From: Candidatus Methylomirabilis sp.
GTDB taxonomy: Bacteria; Methylomirabilota; Methylomirabilia; Methylomirabilales; Methylomirabilaceae
Direction of reading: 5' to 3'
Assembly: GCF_028716865.1 (NCBI RefSeq)
Contig: NZ_JAQUOY010000002.1
Span: 62,001-126,000 of the forward strand
Length of the DNA: 64,000 nucleotides
The position numbers were made by a program, and so were the translations under genes. Positions 17,101 to 28,788 of this stretch are shown here, one piece after another; position 1 is the first letter of the stretch, and every line of letters starts with the position of its first letter. Under the pieces are notes generated by a model, which was not told the origin of the DNA, did not search any database, and saw only the letters and a program-made list of their open reading frames with translations.

Positions 17101-18163
17101 TGCCACGGAACGGACCGAATCGGCGACGAGTAAACGGCGCCAGGAGGCGAGGCAGCGGGGCCAGGTTGCCCGCAGCCAGGAGGTGAACTCAGCCCTTCTG
17201 TTGCTCAGCGGCACCCTGGTCTTCTATCTGCTCGGCGGCCCGTTGCTCAGCGGCCTGGTGGAGCTTATGCGTCTTCATCTCGGGCATCTCGGCGGGGAGT
17301 TTACACCCACACAGGTCCATCGCGTTATCCTTGCTACGTCGCTTCGCACGGGGATGATGCTTGCGCCCTTCATGGGCGCGCTGGTCCTGGTCGCGTACGT
17401 GTCGAACGTTGCGCAGGTCGGCTTTATGACGAATTCGACGGCCTTGTCGTTCAAGTGGGAACGGTTGAACCCGGCGACAGGCATGAAGCGACTCTTCGCG
17501 CCGGGGCGGATGCTCACGGAAACAGTCAAGTCTCTTCTCAAGTTCGCCCTTGTCGGCTTCCTCGTTTATCGGACGATCAGCGCCCACCTGTCGGAGATCC
17601 CTCTGCTTGTGGATATGACGCCGATCCAGACGATGACCTGGGTCGGGCAGCTCTGCTTTCAGCTTGCGCTCCGGGTCAGTCTGGCTTTTCTCACGTTGGC
17701 CGCCCTGGACTATGGCTACCAGCGATGGCAGTTCGAAAAATCCCTCAGAATGACGCGGGGAGAGGTGAAGGATGAGATGAAACAGGCTGAGGGCGACCCC
17801 GCCATCAAGGGGCGGATCAAGAGTATGGCGCGACAGGCGGCCATGCACCGGATGATGGCGGACGTCCCAAAGGCGGATGTGGTAGTGATCAACCCGATCC
17901 ACTTCGCCGTCGCGATGCGGTACGATTCGACTTCGATGGAGGCCCCGACCGTGGTGGCGAAGGGCGCCAGGCTGGTAGCCGAACGGATTGTGGCGACGGC
18001 CAAGGCCCACGGGGTCCCGATCGTTGAGGATGTCCCATTGGCCCGCGCGCTCTATAAGGGCGTGTCGATCGGCCAGCAAATCCCGATTCACCTGTACAAG
18101 GTGGTGGCGGAGATCCTGGCCTACGTCTATCAGATGAGCGGGACGCGAAAGGCGGCTCAATGA
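17087..18163 (+). CDS. flhB: Flagellar export switch protein FlhB
   Basis: A 358-residue protein with a basic N-terminus (TSKRRQEARQRGQVARSQEV), four membrane helices and a cytoplasmic FlhB-C domain. The autocleavage motif near residue 268 reads N-P-I-H instead of the usual N-P-T-H (VVINPIHFAVAMRY). Asn and Pro of the scissile bond are kept. FlhB switches substrate class when FliK signals hook completion. It starts inside fliR and its stop overlaps flhA. Confidence 0.95.
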   Translation: MPSGDATERTESATSKRRQEARQRGQVARSQEVNSALLLLSGTLVFYLLGGPLLSGLVELMRLHLGHLGGEFTPTQVHRVILATSLRTGMMLAPFMGALVLVAYVSNVAQVGFMTNSTALSFKWERLNPATGMKRLFAPGRMLTETVKSLLKFALVGFLVYRTISAHLSEIPLLVDMTPIQTMTWVGQLCFQLALRVSLAFLTLAALDYGYQRWQFEKSLRMTRGEVKDEMKQAEGDPAIKGRIKSMARQAAMHRMMADVPKADVVVINPIHFAVAMRYDSTSMEAPTVVAKGARLVAERIVATAKAHGVPIVEDVPLARALYKGVSIGQQIPIHLYKVVAEILAYVYQMSGTRKAAQ

Positions 18164-20253
18164 ATAAGGTGCAGGCTGCGCGTCCTTCACCGCTCTTGCA
18201 GGGCGATGTTGTGGTGGCCCTGGCCAGCATCGGCGTTCTCTTGGCGATGCTGGTCCCGATTCCCCCGCTTCTCCTCGACCTCTTGCTCGCTCTCAATATT
18301 ACGCTCGCGCTGCTGATCTTCGTCATCTCGCTGTACATCCTCCGCCCCCTTGACCTATCGGTCTTTCCGTCGCTCCTGCTGGTTCTGACGCTGTTCCGAC
18401 TTTCGTTGAATGTCGCCTCAACGCGCCTCGTCTTACTGCACGGCAGCGAAGGCCCAAGCGCCGCAGGCCGCATCATCAATGCCTTCGGGAGCTTCGTGGT
18501 GGGCGGCAGCTACATCGTGGGGGCCGTCGTATTCGCCATCCTGGCGGTGATTCAGTTTATGGTAATCACAAAGGGCGCGGGGCGGATCGCTGAGGTGGCC
18601 GCTCGCTTCACCCTCGACGCCATGCCGGGGAAGCAGTTGTCGATCGACGCCGAGCTGAATGCCGGCTTGGTCAGCGAGCCGGAGGCCAGAGCTCGCAGAT
18701 TGGAGATCTCGCGGGAGGCCGACTTCTATGGGGCCATGGACGGCGCCAGTAAGTTCGTCCGAGGGGATGCGATCGCCAGCATAATCATCATTACCATCAA
18801 CATTCTGGGGGGCCTCGCCATCGGCATCCTGCAGAATGGGATGGATCTGATGGGGGCGCTACAGACCTACACGCTGCTCACCGTTGGTGACGGCCTAGTG
18901 ACGCAGATTCCTGCTCTGGCTATCTCTACCGCTGCGGGCATCGTCATGACGCGTGCCGCATCGGAGGTAGAGCTCAGTTCTACGCTGGGCCGTCAGATGC
19001 TTTTCTACCCGAAACCGCTCGGTATTACGGCGGGCGTGCTCTTGTTCGTTGGCTTGATTCCTGGGATGCCGTTCTTTCCGTTCTTCGCGGTAGCGGCCCT
19101 CATGGGCACAATGGCCTATTCCAGGGTGAAGGCACCGCCGTCGGCGCCTGGGCGGAGAGCCGGGGAGGGCGGAGAGGAGGCCCCTGCTGCGGCCTCAGGT
19201 CCAGAAAAGGTGGAGCAGCTCTTACCGCTGGACTTGCTGACGCTGGAGGTGGGGTACGGGTTGATTCCGTTGGTAGATGCGAGCCAGGGAGGGGACCTTC
19301 TGGACCGGGTCAAACTGATCCGACGCCAATTCGCCCTCGACATGGGGTTCGTCGTCCCGCCCATCAGGATCCGGGACAATCTCTCGCTTCGGCCTAACGG
19401 CTACAGCGTCAAGATGAAAGGATTGGAGGTTGCCCAGGGGGAGGTCATGGTCGGACATTTCCTCGCGATGGATCCTGGAACGGCCCAGGAGCCTGTGGAG
19501 GGGCTCGAGACGCGGGAGCCGACCTTCGGTCTACCGGCTAGGTGGATCAGCACCGCGCTCAAGGAGCGCGCTCAGATCCTTGGGTACACGGTCGTCGACC
19601 CCTCGTCGGTTGTGGCTACCCATCTGTCGGAGGTGATCCGGCAGGAGGCCCGAGAACTGCTGGGTCGACAGGAGGTGCAGGCGCTTCTGGATCACCTGAA
19701 GCAGAGCCATCCGGCCCTGGTGGATGGCGTCATCCCCGCCCAACTCTCGCTGGGCGCGGTGCAGCGGGTCTTGCAAGGACTACTGACGGAGGGGGCCTCG
19801 ATCCGGGACCTTCCGACGATTATTGAGGCGCTCGCCGATTACGCTCCATTCACGAAAGACCCGATCCTGCTGACCGAGCATGCGCGGCAGGCCCTGGCAA
19901 AATCAATCTGCCGATCGCTCGTCGCGCCTGACGGAACCTTGGCGGTACTCACGCTCGGGCCATCCATGGAACAGACAATGTCCGAGGCGGTCATCCAGAA
20001 TGAGCAGGAGAGCTATCTGGCCTTGGAGCCAAGGCTTGCGCAGAAGGTCGTCGAGGCGATTGCTCAGGGGGTGGAGCGGTGCCTCCCGCTCCAGGGACAG
20101 CCGGTCTTCCTCTGCACCGCCGCGGTTCGCCCGCATCTGCGGCGTCTGATCGAACGGTATCTGCCTCAGGTGGTGGTGTTGTCATATAACGAGATCGGAC
20201 CTCGCGTCTCGGTTAAGGTCTTGAGGACGGTGGAGCTCAGCGATGCATCTTAA
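18160..20253 (+). CDS. flhA: Flagellar export protein FlhA
   Basis: A 697-residue protein, normal length. An N-terminal membrane domain of about eight helices carries the FHIPEP signature (NVASTRLVLLHG; GKQLSIDAELNAGLVSEPEA), followed by a large cytoplasmic chaperone-docking domain (LELGYGLIPLVDA-like LEVGYGLIPLVDASQGG). It forms the nonameric export ring. It starts ATGA inside the flhB stop and overlaps flhF by 11 bases. Confidence 0.97.
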   Translation: MNKVQAARPSPLLQGDVVVALASIGVLLAMLVPIPPLLLDLLLALNITLALLIFVISLYILRPLDLSVFPSLLLVLTLFRLSLNVASTRLVLLHGSEGPSAAGRIINAFGSFVVGGSYIVGAVVFAILAVIQFMVITKGAGRIAEVAARFTLDAMPGKQLSIDAELNAGLVSEPEARARRLEISREADFYGAMDGASKFVRGDAIASIIIITINILGGLAIGILQNGMDLMGALQTYTLLTVGDGLVTQIPALAISTAAGIVMTRAASEVELSSTLGRQMLFYPKPLGITAGVLLFVGLIPGMPFFPFFAVAALMGTMAYSRVKAPPSAPGRRAGEGGEEAPAAASGPEKVEQLLPLDLLTLEVGYGLIPLVDASQGGDLLDRVKLIRRQFALDMGFVVPPIRIRDNLSLRPNGYSVKMKGLEVAQGEVMVGHFLAMDPGTAQEPVEGLETREPTFGLPARWISTALKERAQILGYTVVDPSSVVATHLSEVIRQEARELLGRQEVQALLDHLKQSHPALVDGVIPAQLSLGAVQRVLQGLLTEGASIRDLPTIIEALADYAPFTKDPILLTEHARQALAKSICRSLVAPDGTLAVLTLGPSMEQTMSEAVIQNEQESYLALEPRLAQKVVEAIAQGVERCLPLQGQPVFLCTAAVRPHLRRLIERYLPQVVVLSYNEIGPRVSVKVLRTVELSDAS

Positions 20254-21457
20254 GCGATTCCGCGCAGCCACGATGGACGAGGCCCTGCGACAGGTCCGAG
20301 AGGAGTTGGGCCCAGAGGCCGTGATCCTCCATACCAAGAGCATTCCGCGGGACGGGCTGACGCCGTTCGGCAAGTATCAGACTGTGGAGGTGGTCGCCGC
20401 CCTCGACGACGATCCGCCAGGCCAAGGGCCAAGGGCCAAGGGCCAAGGGCGAGGCGCGAGGTACGCCCCCCCATCCATCCCTCCCACGCACCCGGAGGGT
20501 ACCCGGGGGGAGGGGCAGGGAGGGGGTGCGAAGGGCGTAGGGCCCATGCCCACTGGAGGCGCCCTGGAGCCTGCCACGCTGCATAGGGAGATCGCCCAGC
20601 TCAAGGCGATGGTGTCCGGTCTGCTCGGACGGGGGCACCTGCCACCTGATCTGCCCGACGCGCTCGGTCAGATATACTGGTCGCTACTGGCCCAGGAGGT
20701 GGATGAGGGCGTAGCCCGTCGATGGATCGTCTGTGTGCGGGACAAGCTGCGAGCCCAGGCGTCAGCCGCCACGACATCATCGTCAGCCTCGCTCGCAGAG
20801 GTCCTGGCCCAGGAGATCATGCGGGCATGGACCCCACGGATGGGCAATGGGCAGCGGCGGGTAGTGGCGCTTGTCGGGCCGACGGGCGTCGGCAAGACTA
20901 CTACCATCGCTAAACTGGCGGCGGGATGCCACTTCCGTGAGGGAAAAAAGGTCTCACTGATTACGACCGATACCTATCGGATCGCCGGAGCCCAGCAACT
21001 CAAGAACTATGCCGACCTGATCGGACTGCCCTATTGCGTGGCGCCGCTTCCGGATGACCTTTCCCGGGCGCTTGCGGCGGAGCGGGACGCCGATGTGGTC
21101 TTCGTCGATACCGTCGGGAGGAGCGCGCGGCGGCAGGACCAACTGGAGGAACTGGCGGCCTACGTCCGTGGGTACGACGGCTGCGAGGTGCACCTGGTCT
21201 TGAGCGCCACCACGAAACGGGCCGATCTCTTACAGGCCATCGAGGGGTACAGGCCCCTCAGTTTCAGCTCCATTATTGCGACCAAGATCGACGAAACATC
21301 TACCGTAGGGCCGGTACTCGAGGCTGCGCTGGTAGCGGCCACCCCCATTTCCTATCTCACGACGGGGCAGGAGGTGCCGGACGACATCGAGGAGGCCAAC
21401 CCGTTACGGCTGGCGTGGCGTCTCGTCGGGGCGCCGGAGGGCGGAAGGGAGGGATGA
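20243..21457 (+). CDS. flhF: SRP-family GTPase FlhF
   Basis: A 404-residue SRP-type GTPase that determines flagellar position and number. Visible: the N-terminal B region (MHLKRFRAATMDEALRQVRE), an N domain, then the G domain with P-loop GPTGVGKTT near residue 212, DTYRIAGAQQL, DTVGRS and TKIDET. The B-N linker contains four perfect GGCCAAG heptamers and a GC-rich palindromic stretch (20420-20540), giving a Gly/Pro/Arg-rich insert. The frame is intact, so function is probably preserved. Confidence 0.95.
   Translation: MHLKRFRAATMDEALRQVREELGPEAVILHTKSIPRDGLTPFGKYQTVEVVAALDDDPPGQGPRAKGQGRGARYAPPSIPPTHPEGTRGEGQGGGAKGVGPMPTGGALEPATLHREIAQLKAMVSGLLGRGHLPPDLPDALGQIYWSLLAQEVDEGVARRWIVCVRDKLRAQASAATTSSSASLAEVLAQEIMRAWTPRMGNGQRRVVALVGPTGVGKTTTIAKLAAGCHFREGKKVSLITTDTYRIAGAQQLKNYADLIGLPYCVAPLPDDLSRALAAERDADVVFVDTVGRSARRQDQLEELAAYVRGYDGCEVHLVLSATTKRADLLQAIEGYRPLSFSSIIATKIDETSTVGPVLEAALVAATPISYLTTGQEVPDDIEEANPLRLAWRLVGAPEGGREG
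20420..20453. repeat. Heptamer tandem repeat inside flhF
   Basis: Four perfect GGCCAAG units (20420-20447) and a partial fifth. The array lies in frame in the flexible linker between the B and NG domains. A GC-rich segment with CCCTCCC and GGGAGGGG arms follows to about 20530 and may belong to the same insertion. Confidence 0.88.
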
Positions 21458-22314
21458 GGCAGGTGCAGGATCAGGCGTCGAAGCTTCGCCACGCAGCGGC
21501 CACAACCACGAACGGATTCCGGACGATTGCGATTACGAGCGGAAAGGGGGGTGTGGGGAAGACATCCTTGGCTGTGAATCTCGGCCTGTTGATGGCGGGA
21601 AATGGTCAGCGGGTGGCCCTTCTCGATGGCGATATGGGCCTTGCGAACGTTGATGTGCTGCTGGGGATGACGCCGAAGTTTACGCTCCGCCATGTCGTCG
21701 AGGGACAAAAGGAGCTCACCGAGATCATGCTCCGTGGGCCGAATGGCCTGTATGTGATCCCGGCGAGCCGGGGGGTCGAGGCGATGGCCCACCTCCCTGT
21801 GGCAGGGCGGGCCAGGCTTCTTGGGCGGCTCGAACAACTGGAGGGATTGATCGATATCCTCCTGATCGACACCGCGGCGGGGATCTCGCCCAACGTCCTC
21901 AGCCTGATCCTGGCGGCCGACGAGGCGATCGTCGTGACCGTCCCAGAACCTACCGCCATCACCGATGCGTACGCGATCATCAAGGTCCTGTCGCGCCATC
22001 GCGCCGATCTGCGCGCGGGTATCCTGATGAATATGGTGGAGGGAGTCTCCCAGGCCGAGGAGGTATTTGATCAGTTGCGGCGGATCATCCGGCACTTTCT
22101 CAAGCTGGAGGTCCGATTCACGGGCCATGTCCTTCGAGACGAATGCGTCGGACGAGCGGTCTGTGAGCAGAAGCCGTTCTCGGTCTGCTTCCCCTACGCG
22201 AGAGCCTCACGCTCGCTGCACGAGCTGGCTAAGTCGCTCGCAGCGCCGAGTCAGTTCGCGCCACACCCGGAACCCTTTTGGGGTCGGATGATTCACTTGG
22301 CGGCGCAGTTGTGA
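21454..22314 (+). CDS. flhG: MinD-like ATPase FlhG
   Basis: A 286-residue MinD/ParA-family ATPase with a deviant Walker A at residues 29-37 (SGKGGVGKT), LLDGDMGLANVDVLLG, and Walker B-type DILLIDTAAGIS. FlhG (YlxH/FleN) stimulates FlhF GTPase and limits flagellar number. A DQxxxLR-like N-terminal activating motif may be present (DQASKLR). Start ATG 21454 overlaps the flhF stop and sits behind GGAAGGGAGGG. Confidence 0.95.
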   Translation: MRQVQDQASKLRHAAATTTNGFRTIAITSGKGGVGKTSLAVNLGLLMAGNGQRVALLDGDMGLANVDVLLGMTPKFTLRHVVEGQKELTEIMLRGPNGLYVIPASRGVEAMAHLPVAGRARLLGRLEQLEGLIDILLIDTAAGISPNVLSLILAADEAIVVTVPEPTAITDAYAIIKVLSRHRADLRAGILMNMVEGVSQAEEVFDQLRRIIRHFLKLEVRFTGHVLRDECVGRAVCEQKPFSVCFPYARASRSLHELAKSLAAPSQFAPHPEPFWGRMIHLAAQL

Positions 22315-22352
22315 GGCGTCCTCTGCGCCCCACCGAAAGAGTGGACGGATCA

Positions 22353-23720
22353 ATGGAGATTACGCGGGAACACTGGAGAGAATACCGGCGTACGAAAGAT
22401 CCCCGGCTGAGAGATCTGCTGGTTACGGCGAACATCTCCCTTGTGCGTCAGGTCGCCGGGCGGCTGTCACTGCAACTACCGTCGTGTGTTGAGGTTGGCG
22501 AGCTGGAGAGCGCCGGCGCGATCGGTCTCTTGAGTGCCGTCGAGCATTATGACCCGGAACAGCCGGCGGAGTTTGCCACCTATGCCCAGCACCGAATCCG
22601 TGGGGCCATCCTGGACGATCTCCGGTCACAGGATTTTGCTCCCCGCTCACTTCGGATGAAGGCACGGGAAATTGAACAGACGCTGTCTCAATTGGAGGCC
22701 ACCCTTGGACGAGAGCCGACAGATAGTGAGGTGGCGAGCGCGCTCGGAATTGAGCGGGACGCCTACTGGCGGCAACTCGGCGAGATCCGGGGCATGGTCC
22801 TGGTGTCTCTCGATGAACCGGGCACAGAGGCGGACGGATCAGAGTCCAATCGACTCATGCGGGAACTCCCGGACCCGACGCCTCGAGATCCCTTCATTGC
22901 GGCAGCCTCCAAGGAGCGGGTGCGGCTCCTGGGCGAGATCATTGAGGGGCTACCGACTCAGGAGCGGATGGTTCTGACCCTGTACTATGTTGAGGAACTG
23001 ACCATGAAAGAGATCGGACGGGTACTCGAGGTGTCGGAATCGCGCGTCTCACAGATCCACACCTCCGCTATTCTCCGGATGCGGGCCAGGCTCCTTCGGG
23101 TCAAGCTCAAGCGGGATGACCTGATCACGGAGGAGAGCGCGGCCTTCACCCTGCGAGAGTTGGTGCTGGCCATCTTCTTGAGCCTGGGTTTACTGGTTGG
23201 AGGATGCGCGGCGCCGGCCGGCAGACCACCGCTCCAACCGGTCGTCATTCCCCGAGAGGGTCGGACCGTTGTCGTGCCGGCGCTGGCGCCCATGGAGGAT
23301 CGTCCGTTGGTCGAGGCGGTTGCCAGACTGTTTGTCCTCGAGCTCTCACACTCCGGAATTGACGTCCGAGGACCGGACTGGTTGCGGGAGGAGGCTCGCG
23401 CCCGTGGATGGGATACGTCCCTTTCGTCCATCGGGGAAGGGGTATTCCTCCGGGATGGAGACGCGAAATCCCCGGTACTCGATTGGGACGCCTTGGGGGT
23501 GAGGCGGGCCCTAGTCGTCAATCTGTATGGCGTTGATCAGCATTGGGAGGGAACGACCAGGGTGACGAGAGTCGGGGTGGAGGCCAGGCTCATCGCCCTG
23601 CCGTCCGGAGTTCTGCTGTGGGCCGGGAAGATCGCGCCGGGAAGCGCGGGGACGGCCGGATGGTCGTTCGAGCACGCGACCCGTATCGCGGTGCGGAGGC
23701 TGGCCGAGAGTCTACGGTGA
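22353..23720 (+). CDS. fliA: FliA (sigma-28) with in-frame lipoprotein-like C-terminal extension
   Basis: The first ~253 residues are a complete FliA flagellar sigma factor: region 2 (VGELESAGAIGLLSAVEHYD; FATYAQHRIRGAILDDLRSQ), region 3 and region 4 (LTMKEIGRVLEVSESRVSQI). Normal FliA stops here at about 240-260 residues. This frame continues through LRELVLAIFLSLGLLVGGC, a signal peptide with lipobox Cys near residue 285, and about 170 more residues with a CsgG/FlgO-like alternating pattern. Possible explanations are a true fusion, an internal start (TTG 23160 or GTG 23163, both without a good ribosome site), or a lost stop. An alternative start GTG 22311 overlaps the flhG stop (GTGA). Confidence 0.85.
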   Translation: MEITREHWREYRRTKDPRLRDLLVTANISLVRQVAGRLSLQLPSCVEVGELESAGAIGLLSAVEHYDPEQPAEFATYAQHRIRGAILDDLRSQDFAPRSLRMKAREIEQTLSQLEATLGREPTDSEVASALGIERDAYWRQLGEIRGMVLVSLDEPGTEADGSESNRLMRELPDPTPRDPFIAAASKERVRLLGEIIEGLPTQERMVLTLYYVEELTMKEIGRVLEVSESRVSQIHTSAILRMRARLLRVKLKRDDLITEESAAFTLRELVLAIFLSLGLLVGGCAAPAGRPPLQPVVIPREGRTVVVPALAPMEDRPLVEAVARLFVLELSHSGIDVRGPDWLREEARARGWDTSLSSIGEGVFLRDGDAKSPVLDWDALGVRRALVVNLYGVDQHWEGTTRVTRVGVEARLIALPSGVLLWAGKIAPGSAGTAGWSFEHATRIAVRRLAESLR

Positions 23721-23760
23721 CCTGTCTGCGTGTAACGCCCAGGCAGGGACGGGGTAGGTG

Positions 23761-24081
23761 ATGGACGGTCTGTCGAAGGTCAGCGAGCCGTTGCCGGATG
23801 TCGCTGTGGCGGAGCAGGCAAGAGAAGGACGCTGGCAGGCCAGTAGCCGGCCGAAAGGGGCTGCGCGGCGCAGACCGAAAAAGGGAGAGCCGGGGTGGGG
23901 GACGGCATCAGACGACAGGAGGGACTCTCACGCGGAAGAGGACGGCGGTTCGCCGCCGCAAACCGACCCCGATAAGGAGACTCCGGCCGACCAGGAGGTA
24001 TCTGGAGCGTGCTATGGGCGGGACAAAGCCATCGCGCCGACCCTGCCGTCAAAGGGTCGGCTTATTGATATCGCGGTCTGA
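23761..24081 (+). CDS. Small hypothetical protein in flagellar cluster
   Basis: About 106 residues, highly charged, low complexity (Arg, Lys, Pro, Glu) and probably disordered. It has no recognisable domain. Its end, GRLIDIAV, resembles the end of FliK (DSLIDITV), which argues that it is a real flagellum-linked protein. It starts at ATG 23761 (or GTG 23758) after GGACGGGG and is followed by the next gene after 22 bases. Confidence 0.55.
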   Translation: MDGLSKVSEPLPDVAVAEQAREGRWQASSRPKGAARRRPKKGEPGWGTASDDRRDSHAEEDGGSPPQTDPDKETPADQEVSGACYGRDKAIAPTLPSKGRLIDIAV

Positions 24082-24103: not shown

Positions 24104-24664
24104 ATGATCGAATGGGGTGTATCTGCTGTGAAGGACTTGGATACCTACTTCGCCACTCTCGGGACGCAGGAGGCGGCCATCATCGGTTCGCTGATCGTGT
24201 CTCTGGCAAGCCTCTGCCTGCTGCTTGTACTGCTGCGGCGACGATCAAAGGGGACGACTGTTAAGCCGGCGGTGAGCGATGTGGAACCACCCGAAGGAGG
24301 CCCGCAGGCCGTAAGCGAGGTGACCGCTGCTCAGGGGGAACTCCGTGAGATGATCCGGGAGTTTTCCACGCTGGCAGAGCAGGTACTGCGGGTGCTCGAC
24401 CGAGAACAGGTGGCGGCAAGGCTGCCCGCTGCGGGAGGAACCGCTCTTCAGCTTCTCGATCTTGGGCTTACGCCGACTGAAGCGGCTCGGGCGACCGGGA
24501 TGAGTGTGGGAGAGGTGGCGTTGTTGATGAACCTGCATCGGATGAAAGCTGCAAAGGATGGCCTCACGGTGATGCCGACCTGCGACGCAGGGGACCTGCC
24601 GAATCACGTTCGAGAAGGAAATGGGGGGTCCGGCCATGGGAAGGTCGAGGTAGCTCACACATGA
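24104..24664 (+). CDS. Single-pass membrane protein, SwrB/DUF2802-like
   Basis: 186 residues: a membrane helix at about 23-45 (AIIGSLIVSLASLCLLLVLL), a coiled-coil part, and a C-terminal helix-turn-helix-like segment (LGLTPTEAARATGMSVGEVA). This matches the architecture of the small proteins found after the fliA/sigD gene in many flagellated bacteria (SwrB in Bacillus; DUF2802-type in proteobacteria). Its exact function is not known; a role in basal-body maturation is inferred by analogy. The 3' end overlaps the peptidase gene by 4 bases. Confidence 0.6.
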   Translation: MIEWGVSAVKDLDTYFATLGTQEAAIIGSLIVSLASLCLLLVLLRRRSKGTTVKPAVSDVEPPEGGPQAVSEVTAAQGELREMIREFSTLAEQVLRVLDREQVAARLPAAGGTALQLLDLGLTPTEAARATGMSVGEVALLMNLHRMKAAKDGLTVMPTCDAGDLPNHVREGNGGSGHGKVEVAHT

Positions 24665-26572: not shown

Positions 26573-28288
26573 CTAGACCTGGATGTCGATCTTGAAGAGA
26601 GGTGGCATGGGCTCTCGGTTCGATCGCGTATTGAGTCTGGTGGCAATGAGGGCGCGAATGGAATCCACAGTGTAACCGGAAATGTGAAGGCGCTCCCGCA
26701 ACTCGAGCGAGGACTCCTGAAACAGGCCAATCGTCTCGTCGTTCGAGCATTCAATGCGGCACCGCAGGTGCTTCCGGTACAGATCCACGTGGACATCGAC
26801 CGGTCCAAGGTGACTCATCTGTAACAGAAAGGCGAGGTGCGCGTTTTCCGGGTCTACCCGCTTTGTGTGGCCTCGTCGCTGGTAGTAGATCCGGACCTCG
26901 GCGGTGTCGGTCGTATCTTGACCAGCAGCGGCTATCGGCAGATTGAAGACGTAGTACCCCTGGGGCTGGGTAGGCGGTGGCATACCGGCATTACTCAACT
27001 GTTCCGCCTCCACCATCGTGATCATCTCGTGGATGGCTCCGCCGAGTTCTCGGAGCAGGGGTGCGAGACGATGGTGGGCGGGCAGCTCATCTGAGGCCTG
27101 AGTCAATACGTCGTTCATCGAGGCGAGCTGCTGGCGGAAGTCGGAGGCTATTTCTGAAGGGTGCTGCCGCCTCAACGCGGGTGACGCCTGGTGCGGCTCC
27201 TCCGAAAGAAGCCTTGCAGGGGGAGCGGGAGCGGTCGCTTCCTGTTCCAATACAAGAGAATGGGTCGATTGAGGGGATTCTGCGGTGAGAAGCGCCTCTC
27301 CAGCAGGAAGGTCGGCGGTGGAGGTCATAGTCTTAACCGGATCTGGCCGTAGATCGAGCGGCGCCAGATCAGGGCCTTCGTTTGAGGGTAGCCTTGATAG
27401 CTCAATGATGATTTCCTCTTTGGCTGGTGCAGTGGATGGCTGCACCGCCTGCTCTCTCAGGGTATGCATACTTTCTTCGAGGAGCCGCGCGAGGCGGTTC
27501 TCCGTTGGCATAGCGATCTGATTGAGTACCTGTTTGACCAGCGCGGCAAAAGCCTGACCCTGGACTTGGTCTGGTACGAGGAGAGGCAGCTCATGAAGGA
27601 GTTGGCACGCAAGGGCCAGCATATCCCTGGGCAGTATGGCAGCCTCACCGCCTGGCTCTATCTGTTCTGCATGTAGCAGCAACTCTACTAACTGAGTCAC
27701 GAGAGCCTGCACTCGGGCGCCAAGGTTATTCGGTTGCAGCAGTGCGCCCTTTGCCAGCTCCATGCTCTCGTGTGTGACGGGCAACTCTTTGAGCATGAGG
27801 AAGATTGCCGCCTCGATGTCGTCTGCTTGAGGCGCCTCAATGAACGGGAGCGCGTTGCGTGCCGCCGATACGATCGTATTCGTGATGGGGAGCGAATTGC
27901 GGAGAAGCGCGCGAGCGATCAGCAGGTTCGTGCGGTCGGGGAGAAGGTGCTGTGTGGACAGCAAATCACTCAGCTCCTGATCGGCGATACGGCGGAGTCC
28001 CGGCGCCTCCTCTTCAATCTTTGAGGCCACATGCAAAGCGACTCGGTCAGGTCGGACTTCGCGTACCACAAGGTTCAAGACCTGCCCGACCTGTAGCGGC
28101 AGGAGGCTTTCTGCTGCGATCTGCTCCCCCAGCATGGAGATTACTACCTGACTGCCACGTACCGCGAGTACGCGCCCCTGAAGCGCCTGATCCAGGTTGA
28201 GTCGCTTCAGTAAGGAACTGCCCTGGTTCAGGGGCGGAGTGAGAGTCGGGATATGAGCAAGCAGCGATGAGCCAATCCTAGCGGTCAC
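26573..28288 (-). CDS. Second FliK-like protein (Flg_hook domain)
   Basis: A 571-residue protein. The N-terminal part contains a small beta domain (GRVLAVRGSQVVISMLGEQI); the centre is long and acidic; the C-terminal ~120 residues resemble the FliK C-terminal domain (GPVDVHVDLYRKHLRCRIEC; LFQESSLELRERLHISGYTV). This differs clearly from FliK at 5371-7488. Pairing with FhlB is a known arrangement. The start is GTG 28288 behind AAGGAG. A candidate FliA promoter lies about 110 bases upstream, which would make it a late gene. Confidence 0.75.
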   Translation of the reverse strand: MTARIGSSLLAHIPTLTPPLNQGSSLLKRLNLDQALQGRVLAVRGSQVVISMLGEQIAAESLLPLQVGQVLNLVVREVRPDRVALHVASKIEEEAPGLRRIADQELSDLLSTQHLLPDRTNLLIARALLRNSLPITNTIVSAARNALPFIEAPQADDIEAAIFLMLKELPVTHESMELAKGALLQPNNLGARVQALVTQLVELLLHAEQIEPGGEAAILPRDMLALACQLLHELPLLVPDQVQGQAFAALVKQVLNQIAMPTENRLARLLEESMHTLREQAVQPSTAPAKEEIIIELSRLPSNEGPDLAPLDLRPDPVKTMTSTADLPAGEALLTAESPQSTHSLVLEQEATAPAPPARLLSEEPHQASPALRRQHPSEIASDFRQQLASMNDVLTQASDELPAHHRLAPLLRELGGAIHEMITMVEAEQLSNAGMPPPTQPQGYYVFNLPIAAAGQDTTDTAEVRIYYQRRGHTKRVDPENAHLAFLLQMSHLGPVDVHVDLYRKHLRCRIECSNDETIGLFQESSLELRERLHISGYTVDSIRALIATRLNTRSNREPMPPLFKIDIQV

Positions 28289-28788
28289 GCAGGCTCCTTC
28301 TGGGTAAGTCCCGCGAGGGCGTGAAAACGAGCGGGTAGCAGCCCTTGCGCTGCTAAGCGTAATGGGTCGCTAGGCCGCCCCGATATGCCGTATATTCGTT
28401 ATCGGCAAGGCATGGCTCAACTTGAAGGAAAAGTACAGTGCAAAGCAGAGAGCGAAGAGCGCTTGCGCAAAGCTATTGCTTTAGCAGAAGGCTATGGTGA
28501 TTGTGATGTTTTTGTGCTAGAAGTATACAATGTCATAGGGCAAAGCCGGTATTGACGATAGTAGAGCTTAACTTGAAAGTGTCAGTAATCGCGGGTTGTC
28601 TCTGCTATCATGCTATATGGAGTTTCTCGTGCCAAAGGTCTACGAAACCTTTATTCGGTCCGCCCGCCGCCTCCACCATGTCGGATACTTGTTCTGGATT
28701 GTGATCATGTCACTCACAACGGCCGTCGAGTGCGCGTTGGTTAAGCCGCCGGTTCGCGGCGGACAATAGCGAAGGAAGGGGATGGCGC
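28289..28788. other. 500-base spacer with two tiny ORFs
   Basis: Besides the FliA-like promoter, this stretch holds a hairpin (AGCAGC-N6-GCTGCT near 28335) and two small + strand ORFs. One runs 28385-28555 (56 residues, MPYIRYRQGMAQLEGKVQCK...), has AT-richer codons than its neighbours and overlaps the promoter on the other strand. The other runs 28617-28769 (50 residues, one hydrophobic stretch YLFWIVIMSL). Neither has a convincing ribosome site or a family I recognise. Remnants are as likely as genes. Confidence 0.35.
28399..28425 (-). promoter_or_regulatory. Candidate FliA (sigma-28) promoter
   Basis: On the - strand: TCAAGTTG, 11 bases, GCCGATAA. The -10 element equals the sigma-28 consensus in 8 of 8 bases and the -35 in 6 of 8 (TAAAGTTT). 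It points to the FliK-like/FhlB pair. GCCGATAA also occurs by chance inside carB and pyrB, so spacing and position carry the argument. Confidence 0.5.

Follow-up and report, generated by a model that had tools for sequence, protein, structure and literature searches.

Some sigma factors are known to be continuous with membrane segments. In the ECF48, ECF52 and ECF53 groups, of which SCO4117 of Streptomyces coelicolor is an example, the sigma factor and the membrane segment belong to one chain, and release by proteolysis has been proposed (PMC8999054, PMC5826349). The locus studied here shares the general plan of these proteins, in that a sigma factor continues at its C-terminal end into a membrane segment and a domain outside the cytoplasm, but the parts are different ones: the ECF48/52/53 proteins come from Actinobacteria and combine an ECF sigma factor with a zinc-finger anti-sigma domain, whereas here the sigma factor is the flagellar sigma-28 and the membrane segment is a lipoprotein signal. 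Unlike ECF52 and ECF53, which have regions 2 and 4 only, the present protein also has region 3 and gives no zinc-finger match. Its extension carries no recognised anti-sigma domain, again unlike the ECF48/52/53 proteins, and the anti-sigma factor FlgM is encoded separately.

A different kind of precedent is FbcH of Bradyrhizobium (cytochrome b/c1), a polyprotein that is split by signal peptidase I at an internal signal. As in FbcH, an upstream protein is here fused to an exported one with the signal peptide in the middle; in FbcH, however, the upstream part is a membrane protein, while here a soluble transcription factor precedes the lipobox. Lipoprotein signals normally stand at the N-terminus of the chain, and the C-terminus of FliA ordinarily lies near residue 250-260. 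The present chain, unlike an ordinary FliA, runs about 200 residues further and takes in a domain that has its own signal for export. Our literature search turned up no account of FliA fused to a lipoprotein, none of FliA in Methylomirabilis, and no case in which a flagellar sigma factor is linked to a domain that is exported.

The window, a stretch of 64,000 nucleotides from Candidatus Methylomirabilis sp., a methane-oxidising bacterium, holds the gene at positions 22353-23720 of the plus strand. Translation confirms the initial annotation in its central reading, that the fliA frame continues without a stop through a lipoprotein signal and roughly 170 further residues: the frame comprises 455 codons and a stop, with zero internal stops, and is laid out as a sigma-28 match (residues 5-251), a linker with the lipoprotein signal (259-284) and a lipoprotein domain (285-455). 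Profile matches and the ends of unfused FliA proteins delimit the sigma-28 half to residues 1-258 (22353-23126). Residues 5-251 score 239.5 bits on the FliA_WhiG profile TIGR02479, whose cut-off is 189.6, and the Pfam sigma-70 regions 2, 3 and 4 are all matched, so that the half is full-length in the manner of FliA/WhiG proteins. Unfused FliA in two further genomes (G020 and G029) terminates at GRQDLM, the same point as RDDLI in the window protein and thus the normal FliA C-terminus. At the start of fliA a ribosome-binding-like site, GGACGGA (22343-22349, plus strand), is present in all four species that carry the fusion, with pairing energies of -5.5 to -7.9 kcal/mol and spacers of 2-4.

Beyond the sigma half, residues 259-269 (TEESAAFTLRE, 23127-23159) make up the linker together with the n-region of the signal and are conserved at the protein level; the h-region and lipobox follow at residues 270-285 (23160-23207), reading LVLAIFLSLGLLVGG followed by the cysteine. 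This last segment, LVLAIFLSLGLLVGGC, is the peak of hydrophobicity of the whole protein, with a hydropathy of 2.55 over 15 residues in the h-region and the lipobox at its end. The lipobox is LVGGC, and cleavage by LspA is predicted before Cys285 (23205-23207). In all four fusions the core of the signal stays hydrophobic, Arg268 does not vary and the lipobox keeps its GGC. The gene stands in a flagellar cluster of the order flhA-flhF-flhG-fliA, as is typical of FliA, with flhA at 18160-20253, the SRP54-type GTPase gene flhF at 20243-21457 and the MinD/ParA-type gene flhG at 21415-22314, all on the plus strand. Downstream of the fusion lie a gene for a DUF2802-like protein with one hydrophobic segment (24104-24664, plus strand) and then an M23 peptidase gene. 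Between the fusion and the DUF2802-like gene there is also a candidate ORF of 107 codons (23758-24081), where frames overlap on both strands.

How widespread is this arrangement? Of the 15 genomes of the genus that we surveyed, four carry the fusion at full length: the window genome, G005 (a single-contig genome of 2.75 Mb), G008 and G012. The other three proteins are 75-77% identical to the window protein over residues 1-455, and the whole frame is stop-free and collinear in each. FlhA is carried by exactly the same four of the 15 genomes, and every flagellated member of the genus in this set therefore has the fusion. The fusion is thus genuine and conserved within the genus. In the 11 remaining genomes neither FlhA nor sigma-28 was found, so that flagella are patchy within the genus.

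Outside the genus the picture changes. A search for the lipoprotein in 95 genomes of the phylum gave strong matches in six only, namely the four fusions and G034 (another family of the same order) and G050 (another family of the same class). In these two genomes the lipoprotein has a gene of its own, in a different frame, whose ATG overlaps the fliA stop by 14 bases and 1 base respectively; the signal is N-terminal there, whereas in the fused species the cysteine is residue 285 of 455 and the signal is internal. Their lipoproteins are 28-30% identical to the C-terminal half of the window protein and have the GC of the lipobox in common with it. The neighbouring genes are of the same type as at the fusion locus: flhG stands in the same order in G034, and a gene similar to the DUF2802-like one follows the lipoprotein gene in both. 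Since gene order is unchanged in G034 and G050 while fliA and the lipoprotein gene are two overlapping genes there, the fusion appears to have arisen from coupled neighbours; on the simplest history, two genes with coupled translation were joined in the common ancestor of the genus. The initial annotation had named relatives with a stop after RLLRVKLKR and a separate lipoprotein gene as a finding that would refute the fusion. The three close relatives have neither, and that two-gene state does occur in G034 and G050, but in other families, where it is best read as ancestral, so that the fusion in the genus stands. In G020 and G029 fliA ends where expected and a related lipoprotein was not found. 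The same 95-genome search gave a weak lipoprotein match adjoining fliA in G059, where a fliA-lipoprotein pair (L009, about 2260-2930) has an in-frame stop between its two parts; the lipoprotein frame there seems to be interrupted by a frameshift, which may be a sequencing error.

Our best explanation, which we hold to be reasonably probable, is that the fusion is made as one chain and split by LspA into a lipoprotein and a sigma factor that transiently carries a membrane tail. In this scheme fliA and the overlapping lipoprotein gene of the ancestor became one frame, from which the ribosome makes a single sigma-28-lipoprotein chain. The sigma part would remain cytoplasmic, while the internal lipoprotein signal would insert in the membrane with its N-side in and the C-terminal domain would be exported. 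Lgt and signal peptidase II (LspA) would then modify the chain and cut it at Cys285, yielding an anchored lipoprotein, with an envelope role like that of its unfused relatives, and a FliA with a hydrophobic C-terminal tail. This tailed sigma factor would be tethered until the remnant of the signal is trimmed, probably by a site-2 (RseP-type, M50) protease, or alternatively would work from the membrane, and the hook checkpoint would still be provided by FlgM. Genes for the LspA enzyme are present in three of the four fusion genomes (missing only from a genome that is 80% complete), and M50 protease genes are present in all four. We infer membrane insertion, cleavage, trimming or release and any regulatory role from sequence. 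The locus offers a natural test of how a cytosolic transcription factor can be synthesised ahead of an exported lipoprotein in one chain, of whether signal peptidase II can work on a signal inside the chain and of whether sigma-28 is retained at the membrane; the two-gene relatives, as the pre-fusion state, make function and evolution directly comparable.

Is the sigma half of such a protein still a working sigma factor? As with other FliA proteins, FlgM is encoded in the genome (in all four fusion genomes). Candidate sigma-28-like promoters precede cheY and motA. In G005 and G008 such a site is found 103-104 bases upstream of the first long ORF that contains cheY. The window genome (G000) has one immediately upstream of motA and another at a distance of 111 bases from a gene with a FliK-type domain; the latter site, TCAAG-N-GCCGATAA, is at 28399-28425 of the window and its ORF at 26573-28288, both on the minus strand. 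Genome-wide, sigma-28 sites with one mismatch are no commoner than in non-flagellated relatives, and because the counts are similar the argument for sigma activity comes only from where a few of the sites lie. The E. coli-type consensus TAAA-N-GCCGATA gives about as many matches as its control. From FlgM in all four genomes and the sigma-28-type promoters before cheY, motA and the fliK-like gene, we conclude that the sigma half is probably active.

The alternative that fares best is a regulated tether, in which the uncut fusion would hold sigma-28 at the membrane until cleavage, triggered by envelope state or by the state of flagellar assembly, frees the active sigma factor. The retention of the fusion in every flagellated species of the genus is consistent with such a role, as are the presence of M50 proteases and a topology like that of the membrane-fused ECF sigma factors, release being likewise proposed for ECF52/53. 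The retention of FlgM, however, leaves no gap in control for a tether to fill, the signal resembles those of ordinary lipoproteins, for which constitutive cutting is usual, and the Pfam search recognised no sensor domain. We therefore regard a regulated tether as unlikely, if worth keeping in mind. The same low expectation applies to the broader idea that sigma-28 here is a membrane-tethered pro-protein, through which lipoprotein maturation and then intramembrane proteolysis tie expression of the late flagellar genes to envelope export; if this doubtful idea were true, release of the pro-sigma-28 would be a second checkpoint beside FlgM. The proposal that came with the initial annotation, a new mode of sigma control at the hook checkpoint, finds no support: FlgM occurs in all four genomes, which leads us to reject the fusion as a substitute for FlgM and to regard the canonical checkpoint as probably intact, and constitutive splitting needs no such control.

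A second alternative is that translation also starts internally, at codon 243, 258 or 270-272, so that a separate lipoprotein is made too and the fusion is a minor or tolerated product. The purine-rich run GGAGGAG at 23129-23135 favours this, as do the two overlapping genes translated in related genomes and an ATG at codon 258 in G008 (L004), found in that species alone, which has a strong ribosome site (-10.3 kcal/mol, spacer 4) and from which a separate lipoprotein could also be made. The GGAGGAG run qualifies the earlier statement that the second part lacks a ribosome site, since such a run is present, although there is no start codon at a workable spacing after it. The codons that had been suggested as starts, TTG 23160 and GTG 23163, are 24 and 27 bases downstream of the run, and neither codon is conserved across the four species: the TTG is CTG in the other three, and the GTG is GTA in G008. 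Starts at 270-272 would moreover give a signal without a positive n-region. The sole in-frame start shared by all four is the ATG at codon 243, with pairing of only -1.1 to -1.7 kcal/mol and no ribosome site. Between region 4 and the lipobox we found no start with a ribosome site common to the four species, and thus no candidate that is both conserved and equipped with one.

The junction itself evolves as coding sequence. Over residues 256-273 the amino acid is kept in all four species at 14 of 18 codons, with synonymous changes in 10 of those 14 (R268, for instance, is CGA, CGC or CGT, and L267 is CTG or CTT), and over codons 249-268 dN (0.14-0.28) is below dS (0.48-0.84) in every pair of the four. 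This pattern shows that the whole junction is translated in the fusion frame, already ahead of the starts suggested earlier. Stops in the alternative frames near the junction differ among the four species, with none common to all, and a conserved programmed frameshift that would end FliA is rejected on this ground. With the fliA part lacking a stop and the four species sharing none in an alternative frame, the fusion is made whatever else is made. The open frame in four species and protein-level selection at the junction thus bear out the earlier view of a single polypeptide, and we give internal initiation a rather small chance of being the main account.

A third possibility is that the protein is never cut, the hydrophobic segment being a plain anchor and the whole fusion a bitopic protein that acts in the manner of ToxR. 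An N-in orientation, a single span, a periplasmic domain and the marked hydropathy of the segment all suit this reading. Yet a transmembrane helix would normally be longer than this segment, and the cysteine of the lipobox is invariant in six of six proteins, unfused relatives included, as is the glycine before it, which makes an uncut anchor very improbable. Finally, one could suppose that this genome alone is misassembled or has recently lost a stop. That was initially conceivable from a single sequence and was raised as such in the initial annotation, but the same stop-free frame in the three other species, one of them a single-contig assembly, excludes it for practical purposes.

The preferred reading, cleavage into two products, leaves the nature of the exported part to be considered. 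The domain, residues 285-455 (23205-23717, plus strand), has a conserved TRVG motif and matches no Pfam family above its cut-off. It had been described as CsgG/FlgO-like, and a Pfam search with E up to 1 gave no match to either FlgO or CsgG. The nearest match is to the GNA1162 lipoproteins (PF05643, PDB 4hrv), with which it shares a similar stretch, ARLV..S/NG..LW.G; over about 60 residues this match is below significance (E 0.015-0.19 in Pfam and 0.04 in PDB), and PF05643 scores 11.8 bits on the window protein against a gathering cut-off of 25.9. Structure predictions from two input sequences are of low confidence (pLDDT 47.9 for the lipoprotein half and 43.4 for the whole fusion), and Foldseek with this low-confidence model of the lipoprotein half returned no match with E up to 0.001. 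Within the domain, residues of about 351-378 (23403-23486) form a hypervariable loop, with dN of 0.47-1.04 and a length that differs among the four species.
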